From the IMG/VR virus record IMGVR_UViG_3300044954_000152, positions 1-25,342 of that record: a DNA stretch of 25,342 nt. The stretch is one strand, 5' to 3'. Position numbers and translations under genes: made by a program. The notes under the pieces are model-generated. The model ran no database searches. It was not told where the DNA came from and saw only the letters and a list, made by a program, of their open reading frames with translations. This document shows positions 2 through 20,297 of the stretch, in pieces. How positions within the stretch are numbered: the first letter of the stretch is position 1; every line of letters starts with the position of its first letter. The DNA comes from a virus.

Positions 2-748
2 AATGGAAAAATCTCTATAAGAGACATGAATTACTACAACAAGTCGGATTTGGAGGCACTTAAAACTCAAATGGGAATTTCAAGTGAGGAAAATGTGATC
101 TATTCATTCAACCCATTTGTACAGAATTCTCTTTTAAAGGAGTTCTCTTTCAACGTAAAATTGTCTGATGCGGTTGCAAACATGGTAATAAATCAGGCCA
201 ATAATCAAATGGAACCGAGTTCTTCCGGAGTATTTATCCCTGACCGGTATTCCTTTCCTGAGAGCAGAGATCTTCTTTTAAGTTCGTTGAATAAAGATAA
301 ATTCACCAAATCATCCAATACCGTTGACTCGAATGTTTCTGGAAATAGTTGGAAAAAGAAGAGTGATCCGCCTCAAAACATAGATGAAAAAGCTATGGCG
401 TTCACAAAAACACTGGATGAAAATAGAAAACAAGTCTCACGTTTAATACTTCCGGGAGATTCTGGAAAAGCCAAACTAAGACAGATTTTAAATGACGAAT
501 CAGCCGCGTTCTCGGAATACAACACGCCTCCTATACCAGGGGTAAGAGTGGAATTTTCGTTGTTGGGAATCGCCGGATTTAAGACGTTTCAAGTCATTGA
601 TGTAGAAAATTTACCGAAACCTTATGAACGTGGAAAGGTAGTTTTTCAAATCGTGGATGTAAAACATAGTGTAACTATGGAAGGATGGACGACCCAAGTT
701 TCTTCTGTAATTAGGCCGGTTAAATCTTTAGAACTCATACAAAAATGA
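2..748 (+). CDS. Baseplate hub-like tail protein, C-terminal part (5' end outside window)
   Basis: The reading frame is open to the left window edge, so this is probably the tail end of a longer gene; an ATG at 26 is possible but has no ribosome binding site before it. The last ~70 residues have a pattern known from baseplate-hub and VgrG-like proteins: a beta-rich stretch with GVRVEFSLLGIAGF, then LPKPY, then FQIVDVKHSV and a closing W-T-T...RP. In that family the domain forms part of the barrel at the tail centre. The middle (about residues 70-150) is polar and probably linker. It overlaps the next gene by four bases (ATGA), which suggests translational coupling. The hub assignment rests on this C-terminal pattern alone; another tail or baseplate protein is possible. 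Confidence 0.55.
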   Translation, partial: NGKISIRDMNYYNKSDLEALKTQMGISSEENVIYSFNPFVQNSLLKEFSFNVKLSDAVANMVINQANNQMEPSSSGVFIPDRYSFPESRDLLLSSLNKDKFTKSSNTVDSNVSGNSWKKKSDPPQNIDEKAMAFTKTLDENRKQVSRLILPGDSGKAKLRQILNDESAAFSEYNTPPIPGVRVEFSLLGIAGFKTFQVIDVENLPKPYERGKVVFQIVDVKHSVTMEGWTTQVSSVIRPVKSLELIQK

Positions 749-1083
749 AATCCGACTTCATTAAAAGATACGAGAAACTTAATTCTTTTCCGTATGATTT
801 TGTTTTTGCAGAAGAATTCCAACCTTCTCCGACTGAATCCGACTATAAACTTGGAGAAATCGAAAGATTTTTCCTAACGAAACACAGTGGGGAAATTACC
901 GAAGTAGGCAGAGTAAATTACAAATCTTCGTCACCGATCATTTACACCAAAACGGAAATTCGGTGGATAATCGTTGGAGAAAAATCCGAGGTCTATAGAA
1001 AGAATTTAAAGACGATAAAAAAAGTAGGATTGGAAGATAAGTTAATAAATCCTCTGCAATTTTATAAATCTGAAACAAGTTGA
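745..1083 (+). CDS. Small conserved phage protein, unknown function, next to tail gene
   Basis: 112 residues, starting at an ATG that overlaps the stop of the hub-like gene (ATGA). No signal peptide or membrane segment is visible. The pattern GEIERFFLTKH, then V-x-Y, then an aromatic-rich strand (IRWIIVGEKSEVYRKN) and a C-terminal NPLQFYKS looks like a compact alpha/beta protein often seen beside baseplate genes in T4-like phages; I recognise the pattern but not a function. The coupling to the upstream gene suggests a tail or baseplate role, which is inference. Confidence 0.7.
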   Translation: MKSDFIKRYEKLNSFPYDFVFAEEFQPSPTESDYKLGEIERFFLTKHSGEITEVGRVNYKSSSPIIYTKTEIRWIIVGEKSEVYRKNLKTIKKVGLEDKLINPLQFYKSETS

Positions 1084-1115: not shown

Positions 1116-2486
1116 ATGGTAGTATTGGATACAAATACGTATAGAGAATTCATAACCGAAATAACCGGTAGGAATGTGTTCATTGATTATGTTTTAGAAA
1201 AACAATCAATTCACACTGCGAACAACTCTCCCTTGGTGGTTTTTGTAAAGAATACTAAGTCTGACACGACCTACGTAATAAATCTTGGCCACAACGACTT
1301 ATCCTCTGTAAAGCTGGATTACAAGAAGGTCATAGAACTGATTTTGAAAACGGTTTCGACCGCGTTCGTTGTTAATAAAAAGCGATTCATTAACTTGTTC
1401 AAAGATAAAAATGTCAAAGACGTGTTGATAGCTGACTTTCAATCCGGTTATGAAATACCGGAGCCAGAGCACTTCGACACCGCTGCTCACCAACTTTTCC
1501 ACAGAAAATTCAGTGAAAACTACGCTGACATCAACCGTATAATTCCGATGTCAAAACACGTAGAACGGTTTGAAAATGTCTATAAGTTCTTTAAAGAAAG
1601 TATCGATGATTTTTCAGAAGATGAGTCTTTTGTTCAGTTGAACGGAATAATTACAGAGACGCTTAGCGAAGTGGAGTGTAACGGAATGCACATAGATGTT
1701 GAACTGTTCAACAAATACTTCGCTGGTAGAGGAATAACTGAGTCTAATCCGATGGTTTACTCGGAATACAATTTATTTACATCTACTGGCCGACCAAGCA
1801 ATCGTTTTGCTAAAGTCAATTATGCAGCGTTAAATAAAGAAAATGGGTCACGGAGTGCGTTCACCTCTCGTTTTGGAAACGATGGAGTTTTATTTGGTGT
1901 GGATTATCGAGCATATCATCCTCACATAGTTGCCAACCTCATAAATTTCAAATTAAGTTTAGATGTGGATATTTATGAATTTTTTGGAAAGTCTTACTTC
2001 AATAAGCAATCACTCACGGAAGAAGATATAAAAAAGTCTAAAAACCTGACTTTCCAAAATTTCTATGGGGGTATTCGCCCTGAGTATTTGTCTATTGAAT
2101 TCTTTAAGAAAACTAACGACTACATAAATCACCGTTGGGATTTCTTTGAAAGAAATGGGTATGTCGAAACACCTGTGTTTAAACGTAGAATAACCGAGAA
2201 TCATATTTCGGAACCGAACCCAAACAAACTGTTTAACTATCTCCTCCAAGCCGCCGAAACAGAGTTTTCCATTCAATCCATAGGTAGGGTCAATGACTTT
2301 TTAAGAAAGAGAAAATCGAAGGTCATTTTATATACTTACGACTCAATATTGGTTGATATGTTCAAGCCGGAGTCGGAACAAGAAATCCAAGAGATAGCCA
2401 AAATAATGGTAGATAATCAGTTTCCTGTGAAAGTGTATGTGGGAAACAATTATAATGATTTATGTGAGATTAAACCCACTATTTGA
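1116..2486 (+). CDS. Divergent, minimal family A DNA polymerase
   Basis: 456 residues from ATG 1116; a TTG at 1080 would add 12 residues but would overlap the previous gene without a ribosome binding site. The polymerase motifs of family A are readable in order: STGRPSNRF (214-222), motif A FGVDYRAYHPH with D263, motif B with K309, F313, Y317 and G318, a QAAETEFS helix near 378, and motif C YTYDS with D409. Both metal-binding aspartates are present. Residues ~38-60 (PLVVFVKN...INLGHND) resemble the exonuclease fold of Pol I, but no DxE pair is seen, so proofreading is probably lost. Only ~25 residues separate NGMHID (189-194) from the TGR motif, where Pol I has roughly 120, so most of the thumb is missing. 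The steric-gate Glu is His268 and motif C is YDS instead of HDE. Probably the replicative or an accessory polymerase of this phage. Confidence 0.8.
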   Translation: MVVLDTNTYREFITEITGRNVFIDYVLEKQSIHTANNSPLVVFVKNTKSDTTYVINLGHNDLSSVKLDYKKVIELILKTVSTAFVVNKKRFINLFKDKNVKDVLIADFQSGYEIPEPEHFDTAAHQLFHRKFSENYADINRIIPMSKHVERFENVYKFFKESIDDFSEDESFVQLNGIITETLSEVECNGMHIDVELFNKYFAGRGITESNPMVYSEYNLFTSTGRPSNRFAKVNYAALNKENGSRSAFTSRFGNDGVLFGVDYRAYHPHIVANLINFKLSLDVDIYEFFGKSYFNKQSLTEEDIKKSKNLTFQNFYGGIRPEYLSIEFFKKTNDYINHRWDFFERNGYVETPVFKRRITENHISEPNPNKLFNYLLQAAETEFSIQSIGRVNDFLRKRKSKVILYTYDSILVDMFKPESEQEIQEIAKIMVDNQFPVKVYVGNNYNDLCEIKPTI

Positions 2487-2511: not shown

Positions 2512-4086
2512 GTGCATACTATTGATTCAATTTTATCGGAATGGTCGCTGAAATCTGAGACGGGCATAATAGATCCAAAGGATTTAGATTGCTTGTATTC
2601 TATACTAGAGTCCAACATCCCAGACCAAGCTATTGTAGATGAGGTTTTTAAAAATTACAACAATTTAGTAAACGAATTGACTATCCGTGACGACACTGGA
2701 AAAGATTTATCATTGACGCTTAAACAGTCTTTCATAGATAAATTAAGAAAAATAGAACCGAGCTGGGCGGAAGGTTTGTCGGAGGGCGATGAAATAGTTC
2801 GCCAATCAACAACAGTAACCGATGGGGAAAAAGTAAAAATAGGCAGCACGTCCCTGTCCAGAGCAAATTCCCCCGGAGATACTTCGTGGATAATAGCCAG
2901 CAAACCGAACTTGGTTTTCTACATAGATTTTTCTACCGAAGTTGGAACGTTGTTGAGACGTTCCTCCAAAAAATCCGAAAAGTTACAATCGACGGATACG
3001 GAAGCGTTACATGAATGTTTTTTCGTTGTTGCGCTTGCTTCACAAATAGACTCCCAAGGTCAATCAGCAGGGCTTAATGGAGTAGATTCGATTTCTTCAC
3101 TGATAGGATTGATGGATACGACTAATATAGTCATAAAAGACAAGGAAAAGATTCGCCACGTATTTTTGTCAAGAATAGGTGAATCCGCATTTTCTTCCGA
3201 GGTCAATCTAAGAAAGTTGGATGCACAGAAATGTGCTGAAGCGACTTATCAGAAAATCTCGACCACTTATAAGACTCCTTCCTTTGATTACGTCACTCGT
3301 GTATTTGAGGGGTCAAACGGAAAGAAAGTAGTCGCCGATGCGTCCATAAAGATATCTGGAGAGATATTGAGCATTTCTCTAAAATACAAAAAGGGTCAGT
3401 TGAACAACTTAAAGTGCGCAACTGTCTTAGATAATCTTTTTGGAATCAAGATGGAAGAAAAGACTTTCATGGATGCCATATATCGGTTTGATTCGGAAAA
3501 AATAGACCAATTGCTTAAGTATTTCATCATAGGAATAAATTTGGTGTTGCCTCCAAAAGATAAAAAACACTATATAGACGAGAGAACTGTGACCTATCCT
3601 ATGTTCAAGAAACATCTCTCTAAGGATGAATATTATCCTTTGGCATATACAACCATATCAACGGAATTGGCGAAGAAAGACAAAGATGCAGCGGACTTTT
3701 TGGAAAAATATAAGAAATTGAAGGTTGCGAATTTGTCAAACACGATAAGCCGTTACATTGAATCCAAGAAGACGGAAAACCACAATTTTTCTAAATTCTT
3801 AACATACATATTGAGATGTGAACCTGACAGAAGTTATATGTATGTCGGAGATAGCGGAAAGTCTATATACACAATTCCGTCTCAACAGACATTGTTAGAA
3901 AAACAACTGAGGGTCACAGTGGAACCAAAATCCGCAGTCGATTATAACGCTGCGGTAAAAGTGTATGTTGATGAAAATTTGGCATTTGAATTTGATATCA
4001 ATTTTAGATGGACAAAGTCACAGTGGGTCGGAGATATGAGTCAGGTCGGAAAGAATTTGAAGGCATACGAAATAAATTGGGAATAA
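2512..4086 (+). CDS. Large protein of unknown function, possible PD-(D/E)xK-like fold
   Basis: 524 residues from a GTG start; no in-frame ATG lies nearby. I do not recognise the family. A helix with LHECFFVVALAS (E164), then VVADASIKI (D276), then ILSISLKYKKGQ (K291) is spaced as in restriction-endonuclease-like nucleases, where E, D and (E/Q)xK form the active site; here the third motif is S-L-K, so catalysis would be altered or absent. The C-terminal ~50 residues (VDYNAAVKVYVDENLAFEF...) look like a separate beta-rich domain. No membrane segment. It is followed one base later by the next gene, so they share a transcript. A structural role is an alternative, since head and tail genes often have such large unknown proteins. 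Confidence 0.75.
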   Translation: MHTIDSILSEWSLKSETGIIDPKDLDCLYSILESNIPDQAIVDEVFKNYNNLVNELTIRDDTGKDLSLTLKQSFIDKLRKIEPSWAEGLSEGDEIVRQSTTVTDGEKVKIGSTSLSRANSPGDTSWIIASKPNLVFYIDFSTEVGTLLRRSSKKSEKLQSTDTEALHECFFVVALASQIDSQGQSAGLNGVDSISSLIGLMDTTNIVIKDKEKIRHVFLSRIGESAFSSEVNLRKLDAQKCAEATYQKISTTYKTPSFDYVTRVFEGSNGKKVVADASIKISGEILSISLKYKKGQLNNLKCATVLDNLFGIKMEEKTFMDAIYRFDSEKIDQLLKYFIIGINLVLPPKDKKHYIDERTVTYPMFKKHLSKDEYYPLAYTTISTELAKKDKDAADFLEKYKKLKVANLSNTISRYIESKKTENHNFSKFLTYILRCEPDRSYMYVGDSGKSIYTIPSQQTLLEKQLRVTVEPKSAVDYNAAVKVYVDENLAFEFDINFRWTKSQWVGDMSQVGKNLKAYEINWE

Positions 4087-4087
4087 T

Positions 4088-4795
4088 ATGAACATCATAG
4101 AAAAATTCATAAACAAGTTGTCTCTTGATGAACGTATATCTGATGGAATTTTTAATCCAGAGGTAAACGAACATTTGGATATTTTTCAAGAATATTTGGA
4201 AAAGATGGGTGCGTCCACGGAAGAGGCGATGGATGTCCGAAATAGAATGATGGAAGGAAAATATCCAGAACGTCAGGCTTACAATGCCAATGGAATCTTG
4301 GTTACATTTCCTACTCCGGAATATAAACAACGGGCCATCAAACGGGGGACTCACTTTGAAAAGAACCCAAAAAAGTTGGCACCTAATGTAAGTTTTGACG
4401 ACAAACCCGCAAAACCAGAACCAACACCAGAGAAGGAACCGGAACCAAAGAAGGAGCCTGAACCAAAAAAAGAGCCAGAACCTAAGAAAGAACCTGAGCC
4501 AGTCGCTCCACCGGAACCACCTAAACCAACTTTGCCACAACCAACTGTAGGAATACCGGTTTTGGTTTTGCCTCCGGGAGAATTAAAGAAGCGAGATGAC
4601 GCGGAAGTTAAAAAGGCTCAAGAAGAGTATATAGAAAAGATTCTCACAAGCGAATCCCGTTCCGTGAAGTTCACGTTGGAAGAAGCAAAAAATAATGGGT
4701 TCTACAACAAAGGAGTTAGTTGGTATGATTCAAACGGCACTTTTGTTGGAGTAATGTGTTATGAAGAATCATCAAAAACTTGTTTTATAGTTTAA
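4088..4795 (+). CDS. Unknown protein with Lys-Glu-Pro repeat linker
   Basis: 235 residues, ATG one base after the previous stop. Three parts are visible: an N-terminal helical part (1-50) followed by a conserved-looking stretch around EGKYPERQAYN and ILVTFPTPEYKQRA (55-85); a low-complexity linker of repeated KKEPEP units rich in Pro, Lys and Glu (about 108-155); and a C-terminal globular part ending in WYDSNGTFVGVMCYEES. The linker should be extended and stiff, separating two folded domains. No signal peptide. The stop overlaps the next start (TAATG). Function unknown; the genes on either side share its operon. Confidence 0.75.
   Translation: MNIIEKFINKLSLDERISDGIFNPEVNEHLDIFQEYLEKMGASTEEAMDVRNRMMEGKYPERQAYNANGILVTFPTPEYKQRAIKRGTHFEKNPKKLAPNVSFDDKPAKPEPTPEKEPEPKKEPEPKKEPEPKKEPEPVAPPEPPKPTLPQPTVGIPVLVLPPGELKKRDDAEVKKAQEEYIEKILTSESRSVKFTLEEAKNNGFYNKGVSWYDSNGTFVGVMCYEESSKTCFIV
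4433..4501 (+). repeat. Tandem 18-base repeat encoding KKEPEP
   Basis: About four units of an 18-base in-frame repeat encode residues 116-138 of the 4088 gene. The units differ at many synonymous positions (for example aag/aaa, gag/gaa, cct/cca) while the protein repeat stays exact, so the amino-acid pattern seems to be under selection and is not a recent slippage product. Confidence 0.85.
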
Positions 4796-5187
4796 TGAGA
4801 ACTCAGCTTCTGTGCACATTTTCGGATAGATCAGCGTGCAATGTAACGCTCTCTTCCATAAATAAATTCTATAAACTGTCTGACGGAAAGTTCTTTATTT
4901 TTGAAGATTGCAAAAACCCGACTACGTTGTTGATAACCTACAATGTGTTTATAGATGGACAATCCAGAGCTAGGTTGCCAATGACAATCTCCATCCATAG
5001 GAAAAAACAGACCAACACTTTGTATACGTTGAACGCACTCAACAAGATAGTCATGGAAGAAAACGCAGGCGTGCTGGACAAGAACTTTCAAATCGATTGG
5101 GAGATATACAAGAACTGTTTGATAATAACTTCCGACGACGGTTACAGAATCATAGACCTTCAGTTGATTGATATAATTAAGTCGTAA
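4795..5187 (+). CDS. Small conserved protein of unknown function
   Basis: 130 residues from ATG 4795, which overlaps the previous stop as TAATG; a TTG at 4780 would lengthen it by five residues but the coupled ATG is the better start. Predicted beta-rich with strands such as KFFIFEDC, TTLLITYNVF and CLIITSD. The middle LYTLNALNKIV and the later FQIDWEIYKN give it a recognisable phage-like character, but I cannot name the family. Three cysteines are scattered and do not form a clear metal site. It ends the 2512-5187 unidirectional group. Confidence 0.72.
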   Translation: MRTQLLCTFSDRSACNVTLSSINKFYKLSDGKFFIFEDCKNPTTLLITYNVFIDGQSRARLPMTISIHRKKQTNTLYTLNALNKIVMEENAGVLDKNFQIDWEIYKNCLIITSDDGYRIIDLQLIDIIKS

Positions 5188-5206
5188 CGTGTTTTATGAA
5201 GGGGTC

Positions 5207-5220
5207 ATACTATTTATTAG
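5207..5220 (+). promoter_or_regulatory. ATAYTTATW-like motif before homing endonuclease
   Basis: CTATTTATT at 5210-5218 stands three bases before ATG 5222. The same arrangement (ATATTTATA three bases before ATG) occurs at 15356-15364. This is very close for a -10 box with a normal leader; either the transcript is leaderless or the sequence acts in translation initiation. Confidence 0.35.
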
Positions 5221-5221
5221 T

Positions 5222-6136
5222 ATGACAAATAATATAACTAAGGTTAAGTATAAAGGACAGGAATATGAATTTAATTTTGATAAAACCGGGGATTACCCTT
5301 ACATCGTCTGTGATTGTAGAAGGAAATATTTTAGGGCGTGCAAAAAGTGTGGAGAAAATATATTTTATGGATTAAAAACCGATTTAATTCGTAGGTTGAG
5401 TGGGAACTGTATGGCGTGTAGAGACTTCTCTGGAAAAAATCATCCGATGTTCGGTAGAAAACACAGCGAATTAACCAAGGATAAACTCCGAAATTATAGA
5501 AAAGGGACTATACTTTCCGAAGAAACAAAACAAAAAATACGTTTAAAAATGAGTGGAAAAAATCATCCATTTTTCGGAAAAAAACACACCAAAGAAACTA
5601 AAGAAAAAATAAGCAAAGCCAATTCAGGAGAAAATTCAGCGTGTTTTGGAAGAACTGGAGAATTACATCCATTCTTTGGCAAACATCACACTGAATCGGT
5701 TAAACTTAGAATAAGTGAATCGAACTCCGGAAAACGGACTGGCATAGAAAATCCTGCGAAAAGAAAAGATGTAAGAACCAAAATAAGAACGTCACACAAT
5801 AAACGTCGTGAATCTTTATATTGTGGGCAATCTTCTCCAAATTTTAATGTGGATGCCTGTAATTATATGGATATGTTAAACAAAACACACGGATGGAATT
5901 TAGTTCATGCGATGAACGGTGGAGAATTCTATATAAAGGATTTGGGGTATTGGGTGGACGGGTATGATAAAGCCAGAAATATCGTAGTGGAGTATGATGA
6001 ACCAAGACACTACAAAAATGGAGAACTAAAAGACAGCGACGTGATTCGTCAGAATGAAATAATCGCACATCTAAACTGTGAGTTTTATAGATATGATTTC
6101 TCTAAAAAAATCTTAATTAAAATAACTTCCAATTGA
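5222..6136 (+). CDS. Free-standing homing endonuclease with zinc ribbon, three NUMOD3 motifs and Vsr-like nuclease domain
   Basis: 304 residues from ATG 5222; a GTG at 5189 would add 11 poorly fitting residues. The N-terminus has a cysteine set suggesting zinc binding (C30, C32, C40, C43, C63, C66). Three repeats of the type SGKNHPxFGxKH follow at 70, 111 and 145: these are NUMOD3 DNA-binding motifs, typical of homing endonucleases. The C-terminus (about 232-292) has YWVDGYD (D246), NIVVEYDEPRHY (E257, D259, H263) and a D-S-D-x-x-R helix, ending FYRY, which fits the very-short-patch-repair-like (PD-(D/E)xK superfamily) nucleases used by some homing enzymes. It would cut a related allele lacking the gene and spread by repair. 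It sits as an insert between an unknown gene and the SSB gene and has its own upstream motif. Confidence 0.85.
   Translation: MTNNITKVKYKGQEYEFNFDKTGDYPYIVCDCRRKYFRACKKCGENIFYGLKTDLIRRLSGNCMACRDFSGKNHPMFGRKHSELTKDKLRNYRKGTILSEETKQKIRLKMSGKNHPFFGKKHTKETKEKISKANSGENSACFGRTGELHPFFGKHHTESVKLRISESNSGKRTGIENPAKRKDVRTKIRTSHNKRRESLYCGQSSPNFNVDACNYMDMLNKTHGWNLVHAMNGGEFYIKDLGYWVDGYDKARNIVVEYDEPRHYKNGELKDSDVIRQNEIIAHLNCEFYRYDFSKKILIKITSN
5429..5716 (+). repeat. Three NUMOD3-coding repeats inside homing endonuclease
   Basis: Three diverged copies begin near 5429, 5552 and 5654, each encoding (S/T)G-x-x-HPxFGxxH followed by a short basic helix. The first two are also similar at base level. They are DNA-reading modules of the endonuclease rather than independent elements. 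Confidence 0.75.
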
Positions 6137-6241: not shown

Positions 6242-7075
6242 ATGCCGCTAAATATTGATAGAATCAAGAGCCGTTTGAGCTCCCTCTCAAACACAAATTC
6301 AAAATCAACCCTCATTTGGAAACCAAGTCCAGGAAAACAGGTTGTTCGTATTGTCCCTTACAAGTTCAATGTGGAAAATCCGTTTATTGAATTGAAGTTC
6401 CACTATGGATTAAACGGAAAGACCTATCTCTCTCCAGACAGCTTCAATCGTCCTGACCCAATCGTTGAGTTTAGCAATAAGCTCAAGAAGTCCGGTGACA
6501 AAGAAGAGTGGAAGTTTGGAAAGAAAATCGAACCAAAGATGAGAACTTTCGTTCCGGTGGTCGTTCGTGGTGAAGAATCGCAGGGCGTAAAGTTTTGGGG
6601 ATTCGGAAAGAACGTTTATCAAGAAATTCTTTCTATCATCTCCGACCCTGATTACGGTGATATCACTGATATGGCAAATGGACGTGATATTGTAGTCGAG
6701 TTCAAGACTGCTGAAGAAACCGGAAAGTCTTTCCCTGAGACATCTATTCGGGTCAAACCAAATACGTCTCCGGCGGTGCCTCCAACCGACAAAGACTTGT
6801 TGGCTAAACTGTCGAATCAGACAAACATCCTCGAACTCTTCCCAGAGTTGAGTTACGACGAATTGAAGGGCGTGATGGAAGCTTGGCTCCACAGCTCTGA
6901 AGCAGGCGAAGAATCTGCACACTCTCCTAGTGCTGAAGCGTCTTCTGAAAACAAGGCCGCACTTGAAGAAGAGGCTCCGGCCCCAAAGGCTGCTCCTAAG
7001 TCTCCATCGGCTGCTTCTGCTAAAACAAATTCCGACGATGCTCTAAAAGCATTTGACAATCTGTTCAATTCGTAA
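6242..7075 (+). CDS. 32: T4 gp32-like single-stranded DNA-binding protein
   Basis: 277 residues, close to gp32 (about 300). The N-terminal basic part IDRIKSRLSSL is followed by WKPSPGKQVVRIVPYKF, the opening strand of the gp32 OB fold, and by KFWGFGKNVYQEI and the DITDMANGRDIVVEF strand. The C-terminus is a long Ala/Glu/Pro/Ser tail ending DDALKAFDNLFNS, the acidic tail that recruits other replication proteins. It coats single strands during replication and recombination. In gp32 and its relatives a zinc subdomain uses one His and three Cys; here H54 is kept but the cysteine positions read S64, D72 and V75, and the protein has no cysteine at all. It stands alone between a promoter and a strong terminator, and uses many C-ending codons, fitting high expression. 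Confidence 0.9.
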   Translation: MPLNIDRIKSRLSSLSNTNSKSTLIWKPSPGKQVVRIVPYKFNVENPFIELKFHYGLNGKTYLSPDSFNRPDPIVEFSNKLKKSGDKEEWKFGKKIEPKMRTFVPVVVRGEESQGVKFWGFGKNVYQEILSIISDPDYGDITDMANGRDIVVEFKTAEETGKSFPETSIRVKPNTSPAVPPTDKDLLAKLSNQTNILELFPELSYDELKGVMEAWLHSSEAGEESAHSPSAEASSENKAALEEEAPAPKAAPKSPSAASAKTNSDDALKAFDNLFNS

Positions 7076-7147: not shown

Positions 7148-8305
7148 ATGGCAAAATCAAAAAGCACAAGTAAAGTGGAATTTGACGCTAAGGGAGATCG
7201 TGATGAATTGATAACTACCCTAGCTACGGAACTTAATAAATCCTCAAAGGATGGAAAAGTTGCATATTTTCTTGACGACCAAGACGATCCATCGACGGTA
7301 ACAGATTGGATTTCGACTGGTTCTTCTATTTTAGATTTGGCTATCAGTAACAGGCCCAAAGGCGGTTTGCCTGTCGGAAGAATGGTCGAATTTAATGGAT
7401 TGGAAGGCACAGGTAAAAGCTTGGTGTCCGCACATATAGTTGCTGACACTCAGAAAAAAGGCGGTGTCGCAGTCGTTATCGATACTGAAAACGCTGCTGC
7501 TCCAGAGTTTTGGGCAGCACTTGGGGTAAATCTCAAGAACTTATTGTATGTTCAGTGTGAGACTGTGGAAGACATCTTCTCTAAGATGGAAGACCTAATT
7601 GCGATAGTAAGAAAGTCTACAAAGAAAAGAATTCTTACTATAATCGTTGACTCAGTTGCTGCCGCATCGACAAAAACTGAACTTGAGAGTGAACACGGTA
7701 AAGATGGTTATGCTACCTCAAAATCTATCATCATAAGCAAAGCTATGAGAAAGATAACCACCATGATAGGTCGCCAACAGGTTTTGATTGTTTACACAAA
7801 TCAACTCAGACAGAACCTTAACGCAATGGCCTTCGGTGACAAATACATCGTATCTGGCGGAAAGGCATTGGCTTACCACTGTTCCGTAAGAGTTCGTCTA
7901 AACAACATGGGTAAATTGAAACGAGACGAGTTGGTGATTGGAAATAAGTGTAAGGCTCAGGTTGTAAAAAACAGAATGGGCCCTCCACACCGAGAAGCAC
8001 AGTTTGACATTTACCATGACAGCGGAATCGCTGATTATGGAAGTTGGTTGGAAGTTCTTAAAACCCACAACATTGTAAAACAAGCCGGTGCTAATTATAG
8101 TTACCAGCGAAATGCCGGTGGCGAACCTGTCAAGTTCATGTCTAAGGAGTTCGTCGGATTGTTAGCCGAGGACGAACCATTAAAAGAAGAACTGTATTCA
8201 AAAATCTGTGAAGCGGTCATAATGAAATACAAAGACCCGAATTCAAAGATTGTAGAAGATGCGGTAGTTGACGAAGACACTGCCGGCGTGGATGCTTCTG
8301 AATAA
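7148..8305 (+). CDS. uvsX: UvsX/RecA-type recombinase
   Basis: 385 residues. The RecA core is clear: Walker A GLEGTGKS (84-91), the catalytic glutamate in VVIDTEN (E114), Walker B ILTIIVDS (D168), the TNQLRQN segment with following loop (217-235), and SGGKALAYHCSVRVRL (236-251), the strand seen in RecA and UvsX. The C-terminal tail is acidic. It forms filaments on SSB-coated DNA for strand exchange and recombination-dependent replication. Downstream of the SSB terminator and eight bases before the 5'-nuclease gene, so it shares a transcript with it. An ATACCTATA sequence at 7134-7142 is one base off the ATAYTTATW motif. It could equally be called RecA; the T4-like setting favours UvsX. Confidence 0.9.
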   Translation: MAKSKSTSKVEFDAKGDRDELITTLATELNKSSKDGKVAYFLDDQDDPSTVTDWISTGSSILDLAISNRPKGGLPVGRMVEFNGLEGTGKSLVSAHIVADTQKKGGVAVVIDTENAAAPEFWAALGVNLKNLLYVQCETVEDIFSKMEDLIAIVRKSTKKRILTIIVDSVAAASTKTELESEHGKDGYATSKSIIISKAMRKITTMIGRQQVLIVYTNQLRQNLNAMAFGDKYIVSGGKALAYHCSVRVRLNNMGKLKRDELVIGNKCKAQVVKNRMGPPHREAQFDIYHDSGIADYGSWLEVLKTHNIVKQAGANYSYQRNAGGEPVKFMSKEFVGLLAEDEPLKEELYSKICEAVIMKYKDPNSKIVEDAVVDEDTAGVDASE

Positions 8306-8313
8306 TAATACCT

Positions 8314-9390
8314 ATGGATGCTCTTAATACTGAGGATAAGAAAAAGCTGTATTCTCTTTTTTCAAACATAAAAGAGGACATGAAATCTGCTAGTTTGAAT
8401 ACGTCTGAGTCTTCAAACGTTCTTATAATAGACGCATTGAATCTGTATCTAAGAGTTTGGTCAGTCGTTCCGTCTATGAACGACGATGGTGTTCATACGG
8501 GCGGCGTCTCCGGATTCCTAAAGAGTCTTGGAGCCGCCGTCCGTTTATTATCTCCAACGAAATGTATCTTGGTATTTGATGGACAAGGCGGAAGCTTAAA
8601 ACGAAGAAAGATATATCCGGATTATAAGAGCAAACGTCGAACTAAAATAAGAATAAATCGGACTTACGTAGATAATTCTTCTCCTGATGAAGAAGAACAG
8701 AATCTTAAAAAACAATTAGTTAGGACGTTAAATTATTTGGATTACTTGCCGGTGACTGTCATGGCGGTGGATAACGTAGAGGCGGATGACGTTATTGCTT
8801 ATTTAGCCTTGGAAAAATTCAAAGACAGTCAGATAACTATAATGTCGTCTGACAAAGACTTTCTTCAACTTGCCAGTGACCGAATAAAGATATGGAGTCC
8901 TGTAAAAAAGAAGTTATATGGTTGTGCGGAACTGTTGCAAGAATATGGTGTAAGCTGCCAAAACTTCATAAATTATAGAATCCTCGAAGGCGACGATAGT
9001 GATAATATAGATGGGATACATGGTGCGGGATTAAAAACTATACTAAAGTGTTTCCCAATTTTCGCTGAACCTAATAGATATACTGTCGAAGAGATTTGTA
9101 ACTACGCTGAAACCCATAAGGGGAAGTATAAATTGTATAATACGATTTTGGAAAATCGTTCCATCCTTGAAAGAAATTACGCATTGATGCAGTTGAATAC
9201 CTCCGAAATGCAGGGATTTACCCAATTACGAGTAAATGAGATTATAGATTCAAATGCAACACGGCTCAACCGATTTGAATTCAGCAAATTAGTCACCGAA
9301 GACAAGATTTGGAATAATATACCTAACTATCAAATATGGTTGTCCGAAAGTTTTGGAAAACTTGATAATTTTGTTAAAGTGGTGAAGTGA
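8314..9390 (+). CDS. rnh: 5'-3' exonuclease / RNase H of the FEN family
   Basis: 358 residues. The acidic residues of the flap-endonuclease family are all present: D40 in VLIIDALN, D89 in LVFDGQ, the NVEADDVIAY cluster (E156, D158, D159), SSDKDFLQL (D180, D182) and GDDSDNI (D227, D230), followed by the helix-hairpin-helix region IDGIHGAGLKTIL. Basic residues at 96-113 (KRRKIYPDYKSKRR) form the helical arch. It removes RNA primers from lagging-strand fragments, like T4 Rnh. The first ~35 residues before the core are polar and may be a binding tail. It follows the recombinase by eight bases and ends just before a bidirectional terminator. Confidence 0.88.
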   Translation: MDALNTEDKKKLYSLFSNIKEDMKSASLNTSESSNVLIIDALNLYLRVWSVVPSMNDDGVHTGGVSGFLKSLGAAVRLLSPTKCILVFDGQGGSLKRRKIYPDYKSKRRTKIRINRTYVDNSSPDEEEQNLKKQLVRTLNYLDYLPVTVMAVDNVEADDVIAYLALEKFKDSQITIMSSDKDFLQLASDRIKIWSPVKKKLYGCAELLQEYGVSCQNFINYRILEGDDSDNIDGIHGAGLKTILKCFPIFAEPNRYTVEEICNYAETHKGKYKLYNTILENRSILERNYALMQLNTSEMQGFTQLRVNEIIDSNATRLNRFEFSKLVTEDKIWNNIPNYQIWLSESFGKLDNFVKVVK

Positions 9391-10377: not shown

Positions 10378-11760
10378 ATGGAAACTAAAATTATAGATAA
10401 CCTAAAGAAATTTGGAGCGGAGTTCCAACTAAAGTGCATATCAAGTCTTTTAAGCGACAAGTCTTTCTTGGAAAGAATTTCTGACATAGTAGATCCCTCC
10501 AGTTTTGAATCCGATGCTCACCAGTGGATAGTAAAGACCATTATAGAATACTTTTTGAAATACAAGGATGTGCCGACACTGAATGTATTTAAAGTTCAAG
10601 TGGATACTATTGAGGTGGAACTCCTAAAGAAGTCGGTTGTAGAACAATTGAAAGTGGTATATCAAAAAATCAGTGACAGCGATATAACTTTCGTAAAAGA
10701 ACAATACTTGGAATTTTGTAAGAACCAGAAGATGAAAAGCGCTATTATGGATAGCGTGGATTTGATAAAATCTGGTGAATACGATAAAATCTCTCACGTC
10801 GTTCAAGATGCCTTGAAGGCTGGTATGGAAAGAAACGTCGGGCATTCTTATATGACTGATGTTGAAGCACGTATGTCGGTCATGGCTAGAAACACCACCA
10901 AAACAAATTGGGTCGAAATCGACTCCATAATGGATGGTGGCTTGGCTCCAGGAGAACTTGGAGTTATAACCGCGTGTGCTGGTTCCGGTAAGAGTTGGGT
11001 ATTGTCGAAGATAGGTGCGGAAACGATGAAACAAGGCAAGAACGTAGTTCACTTTACTCTTGAGTTGAATGAAAATTACGTCGGACTAAGATACGATGCG
11101 TGCTTTACTGGAATAGATTTCCAAAATGTAAGGAAGAACATAGATATAGTTAAGGCCAAAATCTCTCAGGTTCCCGGAAAACTGATTATAAAATACTTCC
11201 CAATAAAAACTGTCTCGGCTCACAATCTTAAACTCCACATTGAGAGAATACAGATGCTTGGAACAAAGGTCGATTTGGTTATAGTCGATTATGCGGATAT
11301 TTTGAGGCCAAGTTTGTCGGAAAAGAACAGTAACAGTTATAGTGAAGCTGGCGGTATTTACGAAGAACTCCGTGGAGTTGCAGGAGAACTTCAAATTCCA
11401 ATTTGGACGGCGTCACAGAGCAATCGTGCCGCAATGGATGAAGATATTATTCAGGCCAATAATATCTCCGACAGTTACAGAAAGATAATGACCGCTGACT
11501 TCGTTATGAGTTTGTCTCGTAAGGTAAACGACAAGGTAAGTAACACGGCGAGATTCCATATAATTAAAAACCGATTCGGTCCTGACGGAATGACGTTCCC
11601 AAGCCGAATGAACGCCGGTTGTGGCGACATCCAAATATTCTCAGAATCTTCACGGGAAGGAATCGCTGCAATATCCGAAATGAATGAGGGAGAAAACATT
11701 GTTAAGAAAATGATTTCTAACAAATGGAAGTCACACATGGGTTCGGATGATGACGAATAA
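10378..11760 (+). CDS. 41: Replicative DNA helicase, gp41/DnaB type
   Basis: 460 residues, the size of T4 gp41. An N-terminal helical domain (1-150) precedes the RecA-like motor: Walker A ACAGSGKS (199-206), a LELNENYVGLRYD helix start, Walker B VDLVIVDYAD (D304), the TASQSNR motif (344-350) and FHIIKNRFGPDG, which holds the basic residues of the arginine-finger region. It would form a hexamer that unwinds DNA ahead of the polymerase. The first glycine of Walker A is Ala199. The C-terminus is acidic (GSDDDE). Its start has no clear ribosome binding site. It is separated from the next gene by 117 bases. Confidence 0.9.
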   Translation: METKIIDNLKKFGAEFQLKCISSLLSDKSFLERISDIVDPSSFESDAHQWIVKTIIEYFLKYKDVPTLNVFKVQVDTIEVELLKKSVVEQLKVVYQKISDSDITFVKEQYLEFCKNQKMKSAIMDSVDLIKSGEYDKISHVVQDALKAGMERNVGHSYMTDVEARMSVMARNTTKTNWVEIDSIMDGGLAPGELGVITACAGSGKSWVLSKIGAETMKQGKNVVHFTLELNENYVGLRYDACFTGIDFQNVRKNIDIVKAKISQVPGKLIIKYFPIKTVSAHNLKLHIERIQMLGTKVDLVIVDYADILRPSLSEKNSNSYSEAGGIYEELRGVAGELQIPIWTASQSNRAAMDEDIIQANNISDSYRKIMTADFVMSLSRKVNDKVSNTARFHIIKNRFGPDGMTFPSRMNAGCGDIQIFSESSREGIAAISEMNEGENIVKKMISNKWKSHMGSDDDE

Positions 11761-11877: not shown

Positions 11878-13851
11878 ATGACAGAAATTATTACGCAGGA
11901 TTTTTTAAAGAGGTATAAAAACAAACAACCAAATTGGGGATTCGGTGAACTTGGATATATAGTTTACAAGAGAACCTATTCAAGAATAAAAGAAGACGGC
12001 AATTCAGAAGAATGGTGGGAAACCGTTGCTAGATGCATAAACGGTGCTCAGAAAATCGGAGCCAAATACACCAAATCAGAAGCAGAACGTTTGTATGATT
12101 TGGTTTTTAATCTGAAATGCAACTTCGCGGGAAGAATGCTCTGGCAATTGGGCACATCCACTGTTGATCGATTTGGTGCTAACAGTCTATTGAACTGTTG
12201 GTATGTTTCCATGAAAGAACCAAAGGCATTTTTGTTTCTTTTTGAGAATTTGATGCTTGGTGGTGGTGTTGGTTTTAGCGTTCGTAGAGAGGACGTTCAC
12301 GAACTTCCAAAAGTCTTAAAGGGCGCCGGTGCCATTCACAAGAATACAAAGGACGCTGATTTTATCGTTCCTGACACTCGTGAGGGTTGGGTAAAATTGT
12401 TAGAACACACGTTGAACGCCTTTTACGTCACCGGAAAACCATTCACTTACTCAACCATTTTGGTGAGAGGCGCTGGCGAGGTGATAAATGGATTCGGTGG
12501 AAAAGCGTCCGGCCCAGGAATCCTTGTAGAAGGAATCACAAAAATCTGCAAAATATTTTCCGAACGGGAAGGCAAGAAATTGAGAAGCATAGATGTTCTT
12601 GATATATGTAACATTATCGGAAGCATTGTGGTTGCCGGAAACGTCCGTCGGTCAGCCGAAATTGCGCTTGGTGACCCTGACGACATACTCTATTTGAGAG
12701 CGAAGAATTGGTCTAAACAAAATATTCCAAACTGGCGGGGAATGTCTAATAACACTATTTACGTGGACGACTATGAACATATCATGCCTGAGGTTTGGAC
12801 TAATGGATATGTTGTAAATCCGGAAACAGAACACGCAGACGGCGAACCGTATGGATTTTTCAATCTTCCTCTTTCTCAAAAATATGGAAGGCTTATTGAC
12901 GGACCAATGAAGAACAATTCGATGTATCCATCCGACATGGATAATGTAATTGGCACCAATCCATGTGGAGAAATATCATTGGCGGATTATGAATGTTGTA
13001 ATTTGTCGGAATTGTATCTAAACAACATTACTTCCAAGGAAGAACTTTTTGATGCAGCAAAGTTGCTCTACAAGACTCAGAAGGCTATCGCTGCACTCAA
13101 CTTCATTCACGATGAAACCAACAAGATAGTTCATAAAAACATGAGACTTGGATTGGGCGTCACCGGCGTATGTCAGTCGCTTGATAAAGTTGATTGGTTG
13201 GATGAGTGTTATGTCAAACTTAGAAAATTTGACAAGGAGTGGAGTAAAGAACGTGGTTGGCCAGAAAGTGTAAAGTTGACCACAATAAAACCGTCAGGAA
13301 CTCTTTCTATATTGGGTGGTGCTACTCCAGGAATCCATCCTGCTTATAGCGAGTATTATTACAGAACGATCAGACTCTCAAGCACCGATCCTTTGGTGAC
13401 TATTTGTAAGGATTCTGGCTACCGTTGTGAATATCTGTTGAGAAATGATGGCACAGAAGACCACGGCACGGTGGTTGTCTACTTCCCATGTAAATCCACC
13501 AATGAATCTATTTTGGCGAAGGACATGGGAGTAATAAATCAGTTGGAATTGGTTAAGAAGTTACAACGACTGTGGAGCGATAACTCGGTCAGTGTGACTG
13601 CTTACTACTCTATGGAAGAATTGAATCATCTCAAAGATTGGTTGAAAGAAAATTTCCAAAAAAATGTCAAGAGTCTGAGTTTCTTGTTAAGAAAAGAACA
13701 TGGATTCAAACAGGCCCCATACCAAGAAATAACCAAGGAACAATACGCTTCTGCTTCGGCAAATCTTAAAAGACCGTCTCACAAATCCATTTCCTCGGGG
13801 GAAACCATTCAAGGGATTGAATGTGAAGGTGGAATTTGCCCAATAAGATAA
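11878..13851 (+). CDS. nrdJ: Adenosylcobalamin-dependent ribonucleoside-triphosphate reductase (class II, monomeric)
   Basis: 657 residues, somewhat shorter than the Lactobacillus enzyme (about 740). Active-site signatures: LLNCWYVS with C107 and ECCNLSE with C373/C374 (the redox pair region), NPCGEIS with C363 and E365 (thiyl radical cysteine and general base), KPSGTLSILGGATPGIHP (472-488), and the C-terminal CEGGICPIR whose cysteine pair (C649, C654) passes electrons from thioredoxin. It makes deoxynucleotides directly from triphosphates, using vitamin B12 and no oxygen, and needs no second subunit. In phages it frees DNA synthesis from host supply. A CobS/CobT-like pair lies 2.6 kb downstream, which may or may not be related to cofactor supply. 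Confidence 0.93.
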   Translation: MTEIITQDFLKRYKNKQPNWGFGELGYIVYKRTYSRIKEDGNSEEWWETVARCINGAQKIGAKYTKSEAERLYDLVFNLKCNFAGRMLWQLGTSTVDRFGANSLLNCWYVSMKEPKAFLFLFENLMLGGGVGFSVRREDVHELPKVLKGAGAIHKNTKDADFIVPDTREGWVKLLEHTLNAFYVTGKPFTYSTILVRGAGEVINGFGGKASGPGILVEGITKICKIFSEREGKKLRSIDVLDICNIIGSIVVAGNVRRSAEIALGDPDDILYLRAKNWSKQNIPNWRGMSNNTIYVDDYEHIMPEVWTNGYVVNPETEHADGEPYGFFNLPLSQKYGRLIDGPMKNNSMYPSDMDNVIGTNPCGEISLADYECCNLSELYLNNITSKEELFDAAKLLYKTQKAIAALNFIHDETNKIVHKNMRLGLGVTGVCQSLDKVDWLDECYVKLRKFDKEWSKERGWPESVKLTTIKPSGTLSILGGATPGIHPAYSEYYYRTIRLSSTDPLVTICKDSGYRCEYLLRNDGTEDHGTVVVYFPCKSTNESILAKDMGVINQLELVKKLQRLWSDNSVSVTAYYSMEELNHLKDWLKENFQKNVKSLSFLLRKEHGFKQAPYQEITKEQYASASANLKRPSHKSISSGETIQGIECEGGICPIR

Positions 13852-13900: not shown

Positions 13901-14515
13901 ATGTTTGAACCTACGTTAGAAAATATCGTATCAGCCTTAACTATTATTGGATTGTTAGCTAAAGGAGGTTGGGTGGTTTTCAAGTTCGCTCGAAAACAAT
14001 ACTTAAATCTAACTCGTGTTCACGACCAAGTTGACAAAATCTTCAAAGAAATAATCCCTAACGGCGGAGGATCTATAAAAGATAAGGTCAATTTCATGTC
14101 GAAAGAGATAATAACCAACACAAAAATGACTGAACAGATATTCCATCGCCAACGATGGATGATGGATCATCGGGCTGAAGCTATATTTGAGGCTCAACTG
14201 TCTGGGGAATATTTTTGGGTAAATAAACCTTATTGCAAGTTGGTCGGAAGGGATTCTTCTCACTTACTTGGTCATAATTGGAAAAATACTATCTTAGAAG
14301 AAGATCGTGAAAGAGTGGTTTCAAATTGGGAAGCAAGCGTAAAGGATGAAAGGAACTTCGAGGACGAATATAGAATTATTATGCCTGACGGAAAGATCAT
14401 CAAAGTCGTCTGTTCAGCTAATCCGGTTTGTGGGCATGGATATATAGGAAGTCTCCAGTTAGCCACAGATGCGTGTGTTTCTTGCCCGGCTCATAAAGAC
14501 GAAAAAAAGTTGTAA
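13901..14515 (+). CDS. Membrane-anchored PAS-domain protein
   Basis: 204 residues. An N-terminal hydrophobic helix (about 9-28, IVSALTIIGLLAKGGWVVFKF) probably anchors it in the membrane, followed by a helical stretch with EIIPNGGGSIKDKVNFM (50-66). Residues ~85-190 form a PAS fold of the common type: IFEAQLSGEYFWVNKPYCKLVG, then LLGHNWKNTILEEDRERV, EYRIIMPDGKIIKV and a closing GYIGSLQLATDA. PAS domains bind small ligands or mediate contacts. No kinase, cyclase or other output domain follows; the protein ends in a C-x2-C stretch and a charged tail. A sensor or a decoy partner for a host signalling protein is conceivable; this is inference. Confidence 0.82.
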   Translation: MFEPTLENIVSALTIIGLLAKGGWVVFKFARKQYLNLTRVHDQVDKIFKEIIPNGGGSIKDKVNFMSKEIITNTKMTEQIFHRQRWMMDHRAEAIFEAQLSGEYFWVNKPYCKLVGRDSSHLLGHNWKNTILEEDRERVVSNWEASVKDERNFEDEYRIIMPDGKIIKVVCSANPVCGHGYIGSLQLATDACVSCPAHKDEKKL

Positions 14516-14545
14516 TATTAAGTTTTCTTGATAGATTGGAACTTA

Positions 14546-15337
14546 ATGACAGTTCCAAAAAATAAGGAAGCCCCATTTATCAAAGAGAAGGTTTATCTAA
14601 GACAGATAAACAAGAATGTGGCTAAAGAGATGATTGTAAAAAATCATTACACCCACAAATGGAGTCTTTGTCAGGTTGCCTACGGTGTATATTACAAATC
14701 TGAATCCGATAATAAATATTTCGATGGTGAAGGAGTCGGTGACACCTTAATAGGCTGTTTGATATACGGTCAGCCTGTAGGTCGAAGTGCCGCAGCCTCT
14801 TTATCAGAATTACTATCCATAGACGAAGTATTTGAGTTAACTCGACTTTTTATACATGATGGGTATGGTAGAAACATAGAAAGTTACAGCATAACCCAAT
14901 CCTTCAAGTTGTTAAATAAAGAGTTCCCAAAAATAAAGGCCGTGTTAAGCTATGCGGATGGAGAACAAGGTCATGCGGGGGTGATATACCAAGCAACCGG
15001 ATTTTTGTATCAAGGGAATTCCTCATTAGCTTTAATGCCTAATTATAGTTTAAGTTTAAGTGGTCCACCTGATTACAATTGGATGCATAGTAGGTCTGTA
15101 ACGTCTAAGTGGGGAAGTTGTAATATAGAACATTTAAAAAACTGTATAGGAAAGACGTTTTGGTTAAAAAAGGAGTCTACCAAACACCGATATGTAATTT
15201 TTATAGGAAACAAGAAGGAGAAACGAACCCTCCAAAAGAGTTTAAAACACCCAATCCTTCCATACCCAAAGTCCTGTAATTATGTGGAGGAAATTAGAGA
15301 AATTCCTGTCGAACCCAAAACGAACAATTTTTTCTAA
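14546..15337 (+). CDS. Mom-family-like protein (candidate DNA base modification, GNAT-related)
   Basis: 263 residues from ATG 14546; a TTG at 14528 would add six. The order of motifs fits phage proteins annotated as Mom family (Mu Mom turns adenine into a carbamoylmethylated form): IVKNHYTHKW (30-39), YGVYY then LIGCLIYGQPVGR (68-80), ELTRLFIHDGYGRNIESYSITQSF (97-120), and VLSYADGEQGHAGVIYQATGF (133-153) with a following YQG. These form the acyl-CoA-binding-like core known for GNAT folds. The C-terminal ~90 residues are basic and could bind DNA. Mom proteins protect phage DNA from restriction. Whether this one is active cannot be judged from sequence. Confidence 0.75.
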   Translation: MTVPKNKEAPFIKEKVYLRQINKNVAKEMIVKNHYTHKWSLCQVAYGVYYKSESDNKYFDGEGVGDTLIGCLIYGQPVGRSAAASLSELLSIDEVFELTRLFIHDGYGRNIESYSITQSFKLLNKEFPKIKAVLSYADGEQGHAGVIYQATGFLYQGNSSLALMPNYSLSLSGPPDYNWMHSRSVTSKWGSCNIEHLKNCIGKTFWLKKESTKHRYVIFIGNKKEKRTLQKSLKHPILPYPKSCNYVEEIREIPVEPKTNNFF

Positions 15338-16418: not shown

Positions 16419-16446
16419 TTGACTTATTTTTGATCTGTGATATGTT
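16419..16446 (+). promoter_or_regulatory. Sigma70-like promoter for the AAA+/VWA operon
   Basis: TTGACT (16419-16424), 16 bases, TATGTT (16441-16446). Transcription would begin near 16453, so the ATG at 16454 would be on an almost leaderless message. The TTGACTTATTT start is shared with the SSB promoter. Confidence 0.55.
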
Positions 16447-16453
16447 GGTGGTG

Positions 16454-17419
16454 ATGGAACCTACTGACATTAAAAAACGGCTAAAAGCCCTCGTTTCCAA
16501 AAAGCCTGACACGCTCATCATTAGTGATTTGAAGTGGAAGTATTTGTGTAGAAACGTGATTCGTGGAAAAAACATCCTTATCTTGGGTCCAACTGGTTGT
16601 GGAAAAACCCTAGCGGTAAATAGCGTGGGAAAACTGTTTGTTCCTGATGAAAATTATTTTTGTTTCAATTTAGGAAGCACCCAAGATGCCCGGGTTTCTC
16701 TAATAGGAAATACCAATTTTGACAAAGCCACGGGGACGGTATTTAATGAATCCAAATTCGTTTCGGCCATCCGGACGGAGAATGCAATAATTCTGTTGGA
16801 TGAAATTTCTAGAGCGCATCCGGATGCATGGAACATATTAATGTCCGTTTTGGACCCTATTCAGAGATACTTGAGACTGGATGAACACCGTGAGGGTGAA
16901 ATTGTGAAGGTGGCTAAAGGGGTTACTTTCCTCGCCACCGCTAACGTAGGAAACGAATATACATCCACTAAAGTAATGGATCGTGCTTTATTGAACCGAT
17001 TTAATGTGAAAATCGAAATGGAACCATTGGGACTTTCGGATGAATTCAATTTGTTGAAAAATAGACTGTCAATCACAGACGAAACCGAGTTGGAGACGCT
17101 TAATGCTCTGCTTAAAATTTGTGAACACACCAGAAACGAAATCAAAAAACCAGAATCTAAATTGTCGAATTTCATTTCTACAAGAGATGCGGTTGAGATG
17201 GCGGAATTGATAGTTGATGGGTTCTCATTGGTGGAGATCGCTGAGAATGTCATATATCCTAATTTTGAGGCAGATGGTGGAGTCGATAGTGAAAGAACGT
17301 TTGTAAAACAGATAGTCCAGAAATACGTGGCTGCCCCAAATCTGCCTAAGACGTTGTTCCCATCTTCCGGAGGCACGGCTGCTTCTACTCCGGTACCGGA
17401 TTCAAAGGTTCCATTTTAA
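16454..17419 (+). CDS. MoxR/CobS-like AAA+ ATPase
   Basis: 321 residues from ATG 16454; earlier in-frame starts (16430 TTG, 16442 ATG) overlap the promoter. Walker A GPTGCGKT (45-52), Walker B AIILLDEISR (D116, E117), sensor-1 FLATANVGN (N164) and RALLNRF (R177, R182) make a complete AAA+ motor. The insert after Walker B and the order of motifs fit the MoxR/CbbQ/CobS clade, whose members work with a VWA partner to remodel or insert metal into a target. The partner gene starts three bases downstream. In cyanophages a relative is annotated cobS (cobalt chelatase). It could therefore act on cobalamin metabolism or as a protein chaperone; sequence alone does not decide. Confidence 0.85.
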   Translation: MEPTDIKKRLKALVSKKPDTLIISDLKWKYLCRNVIRGKNILILGPTGCGKTLAVNSVGKLFVPDENYFCFNLGSTQDARVSLIGNTNFDKATGTVFNESKFVSAIRTENAIILLDEISRAHPDAWNILMSVLDPIQRYLRLDEHREGEIVKVAKGVTFLATANVGNEYTSTKVMDRALLNRFNVKIEMEPLGLSDEFNLLKNRLSITDETELETLNALLKICEHTRNEIKKPESKLSNFISTRDAVEMAELIVDGFSLVEIAENVIYPNFEADGGVDSERTFVKQIVQKYVAAPNLPKTLFPSSGGTAASTPVPDSKVPF

Positions 17420-17422
17420 CGT

Positions 17423-20062: not shown

Positions 20063-20276
20063 CATATATTTTACCAATTTTTATATAATCCTCGTTGGTT
20101 GTATAGTAATTTATCCTTATTGTCGTGGGGAGATTCTTAATGACTGCGGCCACCCGATTCTTACTACCGTATATGATTGGTTGATTTAGTTCTGAGTCAA
20201 ATAAAACGCAATTCGTTGCGTCAATTTCTATATAATGAAACAGCGTTTCTTTTGTGTTGATTTTCTTGAAAGTCAT
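20043..20276 (-). CDS. Small unknown protein on the minus strand
   Basis: 77 residues, ATG at 20276. No known motif, no membrane segment; the composition is mixed with strands such as HYIEIDATNCVLFD and TIRINYYT, and a basic end KIYEKRKGH. It is supported as a gene by its own ATACTTATT motif 12 bases before the start and by the convergent terminator. It is divergent from the DruA-like gene at 20296. Confidence 0.6.
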   Translation of the reverse strand: MTFKKINTKETLFHYIEIDATNCVLFDSELNQPIIYGSKNRVAAVIKNLPTTIRINYYTTNEDYIKIGKIYEKRKGH

Positions 20277-20282
20277 GGTAGT

Positions 20283-20297
20283 GTTATTAATAAGTAT
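20283..20297 (-). promoter_or_regulatory. ATACTTATTAATAAC motif between divergent genes
   Basis: On the minus strand it reads ATACTTATTAATAAC, nearly the same as at 13881. The core TTATTAATAA is palindromic, so it could fire towards both the 20043-20276 gene and the 20296 gene, whose ATG lies inside the site. Confidence 0.45.

Follow-up and report, generated by a model that had tools for sequence, protein, structure and literature searches.

A predicted thumbless member of the divPolA1 family of phage DNA polymerases with a histidine at the gate position and a linked orphan gene

We found that a 25,342-bp IMG/VR virus record, which was analysed over its whole length (hereafter, the window) and is probably a fragment of a viral genome, encodes a new member of the divPolA1 family at positions 1116 to 2486. 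The product is a family A DNA polymerase that, in its predicted structure, has kept the fingers, the palm and an inactive exonuclease domain and has lost about 88 thumb residues. To the published description of the family, the present study adds a histidine in motif A that is invariant among the members, an orphan protein linked to the polymerase, at least 595 viral loci, and the T4-type replicase that the nearest large relative encodes. It also extends the family to a 484-kb phage and a Microcystis phage.

The family was named by Yutin et al. in 2024 for Flavobacterium phage immuto and 13 relatives (14 phages in total), in which the palm is kept, the thumb is truncated, and the exonuclease is inactivated (PMC11348598). 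The genomes of these phages, of about 155-190 kb, also encode a regular PolA, PolB or PolC (PMC11348598). In the literature searched, the name divPolA1 occurs only in that paper and its preprint.

The open reading frame of the polymerase is intact, starts with ATG, and runs in a single frame of 456 codons. An alternative TTG start at 1080 is possible; however, the relatives, for example the one designated L007, start where the ATG at 1116 stands, which favours the latter. The C-terminal half gave a weak match to Pfam DNA_pol_A (E = 8.5e-8) with a score of 32.0 bits, below the curated cut-off of 34.3, and also matched the DNA polymerases of PHROG 17 (E = 5.8e-14). The type protein from immuto is 29.5% identical over residues 22-445 (93% of the query; tblastn, E = 6e-46), and the two proteins fall in a single family alignment. 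The traits of the family, namely the catalytic residues of the palm, the truncated thumb, the inactivated exonuclease, and a replication gene order downstream, are all present. Among 50,697 phage records, long tblastn matches covered 93% of the query in immuto, 75% in Microcystis phage Mel-JY01, and 68% in LR756508, an uncultured 484-kb phage whose reading frame has the full divPolA1 length; in the other phage records listed, the match is confined to the palm of a larger polymerase. Rhodothermus phage RM378, which is known for a split polymerase, was absent among the close matches listed.

A scan of viral contigs with the single window protein gave nothing, and an alignment was needed; the alignment-based scan of IMG/VR showed that relatives are encoded at no fewer than 595 viral loci; those of full length have about 419-467 residues. 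Among 84,980 cellular genomes, only six contigs of metagenome-assembled genomes matched; thus, divPolA1 is a phage gene, and a prophage or cellular role was rejected.

The initial annotation, made from the sequence of the window, had proposed that the thumb is almost gone, with only about 25 residues between the NGMHID helix and the TGR motif. The short gap holds, and the figure needs correction: NGMHID begins at residue 189 and TGR at residue 224, a spacing of 35 where E. coli Pol I has 123, with 29 residues strictly between the two motifs. The thumb is the part of textbook family A polymerases that grips the primer-template duplex. An AlphaFold2 model of the polymerase (54 sequences; mean pLDDT 93, pTM 0.91) contains no thumb helices; where Pol I has them, the helix at 195-205 is joined to the strand at 229-231 by a loop only. 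Searches with Foldseek and VIA-align gave the Klenow, Bst and Taq Pol I structures as the nearest (Z about 27), and the alignment with Bst Pol I covers 417 residues at 3.7 A, pairing residues 1-450 of the model with Bst 302-876. A full thumb in the model, which would have spoken against the proposal, is thus excluded. So is a hidden frameshift or an assembly artefact, because the same gap is common to the many full-length relatives and so cannot be due to chance.

The exonuclease-like domain had been described as devoid of an acidic motif, and this description proved correct. To judge from its sequence and secondary structure, none of the three exonuclease motif regions has conserved catalytic acids, and the acids of the DxE, D and YxxxD patterns of exo I, II and III are missing; the conserved acids D102 and E150 lie outside these patterns. 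As the profile alignment of this part was unreliable, our reading depends on the sequence, the predicted secondary structure, and a published structure-guided alignment of relatives (PMC11348598). Residues K89, D102 and P144 and a patch of K147-H148-x-E150 are conserved family-wide in the domain. Since the dead domain keeps a polar patch of its own (K89, D102 and K147-H148-E150), it may have acquired a binding role instead of merely decaying.

In a profile alignment with the polymerases of E. coli, T7 and immuto, D263 falls on D705, H268 on E710, R226 on R668, K309 on K758, F313 on F762, Y317 on Y766, N374 on N845, Q378 on Q849, and D409 on D882 (E. coli residues in Pol I numbering). The Asp of motif A is therefore D263, and the residue five positions after it is H268 in place of the Glu of canonical Klenow-type enzymes, in agreement with the initial annotation. 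Motif C is Y408-D409-S410 in place of HDE; this was also noticed earlier, and it is less unusual than it had seemed, as HDS, together with Glu at the gate, already occurs in two other polymerases, one from a Staphylococcus phage of the Herelleviridae and one from a Roseobacter phage. In Pol I the gate is faced by a Tyr, which is kept here as Y317. To judge from the sequence, the palm and fingers are complete in key residues except for the change of Glu to His at the gate, of HDE to YDS in motif C, and the usual loss of the O-helix Arg (R754 in E. coli).

Among 74 distinct members, D263, H268, F313, Y317, R226 and N235 are invariant, and the same holds for K309, Q378, Y408 and D409 once truncated or ambiguous stretches are set aside. 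The proteins from immuto, Mel-JY01 and LR756508 share the gap, the His, and a YD[SA] motif. As the search pattern for motif A itself included the His, its conservation was checked independently. His was found in 18/18 members outside the pattern and, among 61 further sequences from the orphan-seeded scan or from a genome scan with other motifs, in every one of the 58 scorable ones. The gate residue is Glu in the other family A polymerases with which we compared it. Because the His is family-wide, it is presumably functional. An effect on ribonucleotide discrimination, as suggested in the initial annotation, is no more than possible, since Y317 is kept and His is about as bulky as Glu, not smaller. 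The O-helix Arg is replaced in most divPolA1 members, which could weaken dNTP binding. However, Arg is present at this position in nine sequences of the independent set, and Met replaces F313 in 12; neither the loss of the Arg nor F313 is therefore a family-wide trait, and we rejected the former as a universal one.

In its gene content, the window resembles the replication region of T4-type phages. The following features, all on the plus strand, were recognised.

26 to 748, plus strand: upstream gene, found at 63 loci and longer in relatives, probably a tail or baseplate gene from its size and position; it marks the start of the replication cassette
745 to 1083, plus strand: conserved upstream neighbour, found at 63 loci, probably a baseplate gene
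1116 to 2486, plus strand: divPolA1 family A DNA polymerase, 456 residues, predicted to be thumbless and exonuclease-dead
2512 to 4086, plus strand: 524-residue protein in the variable slot, found at three loci only
4088 to 4795, plus strand: 235-residue repeat-rich protein in the variable slot, found at 15 loci
4795 to 5187, plus strand: 130-residue orphan, candidate partner of the polymerase, predicted alpha/beta with a ferredoxin-like N-terminal half
6242 to 7075, plus strand: gp32-like single-strand DNA binding protein (PF08804, E = 1.8e-14; phrog_1192)
7148 to 8305, plus strand: UvsX/RecA-like recombinase (phrog_97, E = 2e-69; PF00154)
8314 to 9390, plus strand: separate 5'-3' exonuclease (PF02739, E = 1.5e-30)
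10378 to 11760, plus strand: gp41/DnaB-like replicative helicase (phrog_19, E = 5e-77; PF03796)
11878 to 13851, plus strand: class II (B12-dependent type) ribonucleotide reductase (phrog_367, E = 2e-141; PF21995)

Across 84 loci the gene order is fixed: two upstream genes, divPolA1, a variable slot, the orphan, the single-strand DNA binding protein (SSB), UvsX, the 5'-3' exonuclease, and gp41. The order of gp32, UvsX, 5'-3' exonuclease, gp41 and ribonucleotide reductase is found in the window and in relatives. Between divPolA1 and the orphan (2512-4795 in the window), the slot holds, depending on the phage, unrelated proteins of about 180-780 residues or nothing, and is thus a variable island in a conserved cassette. 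A NUMOD3 homing endonuclease lies at 5189-6136, between the orphan gene and gp32, and only two of the compared loci have it.

Several other reading frames of the window deserve mention. A small protein at 13901-14515 has a hydrophobic stretch in its N-terminal part and a PAS domain (PF08447, E = 7.4e-12), which is unusual for a phage replication region. It is followed at 14528-15337 by a Mom-family DNA modification protein (PF25680, E = 3.4e-42), which suggests that the phage DNA is modified. Positions 16430-19534 encode a MoxR-type AAA ATPase (AAA_5, E = 1.2e-16) and then a 703-residue protein without a Pfam match, which resembles a von Willebrand factor A partner; similar reading frames occur in the nearest relative. 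A DruA-domain protein, as in the Druantia defence system, is encoded at 20254-21477 (PF14236, E = 5.6e-23; phrog_19197), and a shorter reading frame at 24401-25165 weakly matches part of phrog_19197.

Clustering of neighbouring reading frames placed the orphan downstream of divPolA1 at 82/84 loci and the SSB at 75. Among the 50,697 phage records, the orphan is present in exactly the six that have divPolA1, four of which are near-identical, so that three lineages are represented; two more matches in this collection are partial and at chance level (E = 5 and 8). In the reverse direction, a scan seeded with the orphan found divPolA1 upstream at 61/80 loci, and the remaining 19 contigs have less than 3.5 kb of sequence upstream. 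Alternative TTG starts at 4780 and 4792 are possible for the orphan gene. Its invariant residues include H69, R70, Y78, N81, N84 and W103. In comparisons with PHROG, no family was common to more than 3/13 members (best single match, E = 2.4e-4), and in the viral library one protein of an uncultured phage matched. The model of the orphan (pLDDT 94) is alpha/beta, and comparison with the PDB gave no clear match (best E = 0.11 or Z = 6.6); on these grounds, we rejected the orphan as a split-off thumb or a sliding clamp.

Because of the strict linkage, the orphan may be considered the first candidate for a dedicated partner of divPolA1. The linkage could have another cause, such as helicase loading or regulation. 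A stronger version, in which divPolA1 and the orphan form an obligate two-subunit polymerase, with the orphan doing the job of the thumb and the His giving an unusual choice of substrate, is possible but, in our judgement, less likely than not; if true, it would be a new architecture among family A polymerases.

A second full-size polymerase was found in 16/18 larger records with divPolA1: 13 have a family B polymerase and three (the records G014 and G015, and immuto) have a full-size second family A polymerase. LR756508 has a family C polymerase in addition to family B. The only larger records with no second polymerase are a 44-kb and a 47-kb fragment, and the 25-kb window, which is too short to show the main polymerase of its phage, contains no second PolA. 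The nearest large relative of the window polymerase, L007 (68% identity by tblastn), lies in a 174-kb contig (G001) that encodes an 843-residue PolB, in which Pfam recognises an exonuclease domain (E = 2.7e-22), and, 2 kb downstream of it, a clamp loader. A 246-residue reading frame beside the clamp loader is placed like a clamp and has no Pfam match, and nothing scored above the cut-off of the T4 clamp model (PF02916). Given the second polymerase in relatives, divPolA1 is probably an accessory enzyme. The initial annotation had offered two possibilities, a special-purpose polymerase or a thumb function supplied by another protein; the records with two polymerases favour the former, and for the latter there is a candidate, the orphan, by linkage. 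The 174-kb contig G001 carries, at 94681-99451, two reading frames that by eye look like planctomycete or verrucomicrobial cytochrome-type and DUF1501 proteins, either a hint to the host or a sign of a chimeric assembly.

We propose, with about even confidence, that divPolA1 is an accessory, distributive gap-filling polymerase of the gp32-UvsX-exonuclease-gp41 cassette, a set of recombination and lagging-strand genes, possibly acting with the orphan. The main replicase would be the full-size family B (or A or C) polymerase encoded elsewhere. Since it has no thumb, divPolA1 would hold DNA loosely, with weak binding of the primer-template, and would carry out short synthesis of a few nucleotides per binding. 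With the 5'-3' exonuclease, the gp32-like protein, UvsX and gp41, it would constitute a 'split Pol I' and fill short gaps at Okazaki junctions or at recombination or repair intermediates, and the 130-residue orphan would probably serve as its dedicated partner. It is the gene order that points to gap filling; the position in the cassette is equally compatible with a core function at the fork, and recombination repair or lesion bypass would suit the gene context as well. In a repair or translesion role, UvsX would load divPolA1 on D-loops or damaged templates, and the open, His-gated active site, with neither thumb nor proofreading, would tolerate lesions. UvsX and gp32 in the cassette and the missing thumb and proofreading motifs are consistent with such a role, to which we give some credence but rather little, as the cassette also contains fork proteins (gp41) and a 5'-3' exonuclease, and the sequence has no readable signature of lesion bypass. 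A core fork function was suggested from the context by Yutin et al., as divPolA1 lies in a conserved replication context and the regular polymerases lie in variable ones (PMC11348598). In this scheme divPolA1 would serve one strand or initiation, the strictly linked orphan would replace the thumb for processivity, and the regular polymerase would do other work. However, divPolA1 cannot proofread, and in the nearest large relative the PolB with its own exonuclease domain and neighbouring clamp loader has the arrangement of a T4 replicase; we therefore consider the core function unlikely.

The invariant His, where the other family A polymerases compared have Glu, might also suggest an enzyme that makes or extends RNA primers, with the gate admitting ribonucleotides and the missing thumb permitting initiation without a long duplex. 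No DnaG-type primase was found in the 174-kb relative, which would fit. However, the long reading frames of that contig include no recognisable capsid or terminase gene, so that it is probably incomplete, and a T4-type DnaG primase is encoded in all three phage-collection genomes and in two large contigs. These primases make a primer role less likely and led us to reject a replacement of the primase by divPolA1; given also the size of the His, we regard the primer role as very unlikely. The loss of the thumb and the exonuclease, and usually of the O-helix Arg, would be expected of a catalytically idle scaffold or regulator. Yet members that share only about 30% identity all have the two catalytic Asps as well as Lys309, Tyr317, Arg226 and Gln378, which makes an idle protein highly improbable; we infer that divPolA1 is a catalytically competent family A polymerase.

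A widespread phage family that keeps all catalytic residues and has no thumb raises the question of the minimum required for DNA synthesis, and also why T4-like phages, which have a complete replicase, retain a second polymerase that does not proofread. The orphan and the invariant His make these questions answerable with a few purified proteins. Thumbless enzymes could be of interest to biotechnology if they accept unusual nucleotides.

Compared with known systems, divPolA1 resembles the Klenow, Bst and Taq forms of Pol I in the folds of the exonuclease-like domain, palm and fingers, and in the Asp of motif A, the Lys, Phe and Tyr of motif B, and the Asp of motif C. It differs in that the thumb of about 120 residues is missing, the gate is His instead of Glu, and motif C is YDS instead of HDE. 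The 5'-3' exonuclease domain, which is fused to Pol I in bacteria, is here the product of a separate gene. E. coli Pol I proofreads, whereas Bst and Taq, which also have vestigial exonuclease domains, do not. In T7 gp5 the thumb is retained and carries an insertion through which thioredoxin is bound. The likeness to a family A polymerase with a small partner is an analogy, as the thumb is missing in divPolA1 and the orphan is a candidate partner by genetic linkage. The polymerases of Herelleviridae (Twort/SPO1-like; phrog_17) are the best-covered matches outside divPolA1 and share FTSRF and the Ser of HDS/YDS; however, they have about 1,070 residues, the usual spacing before TGR, and a Glu gate.

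The closest comparison is the divPolA1 of immuto, which is homologous over the full length and has the catalytic residues of the palm, the same loss of thumb and exonuclease, the same replication cassette downstream, and a second polymerase in relatives; the two proteins differ in sequence, as the identity given above indicates. The divPolA2 of barbaviruses has an N-terminal domain unrelated to known domains and a variable gene context (PMC11348598). It is likewise a thumbless family A palm in phages with another polymerase, whereas in our protein the exonuclease fold is kept (included in the alignment of model residues 1-450 to Pol I 302-876) and the gene context is conserved. TV-Pols, which are also minimal family A-type polymerases of mobile elements, have a two-helix thumb module (Iyer et al. 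2008, PMC2579912), whereas the divPolA1 model has no thumb helices. TV-Pols are linked to D5 helicases (PMC2579912), and divPolA1 is linked to gp41 and UvsX.
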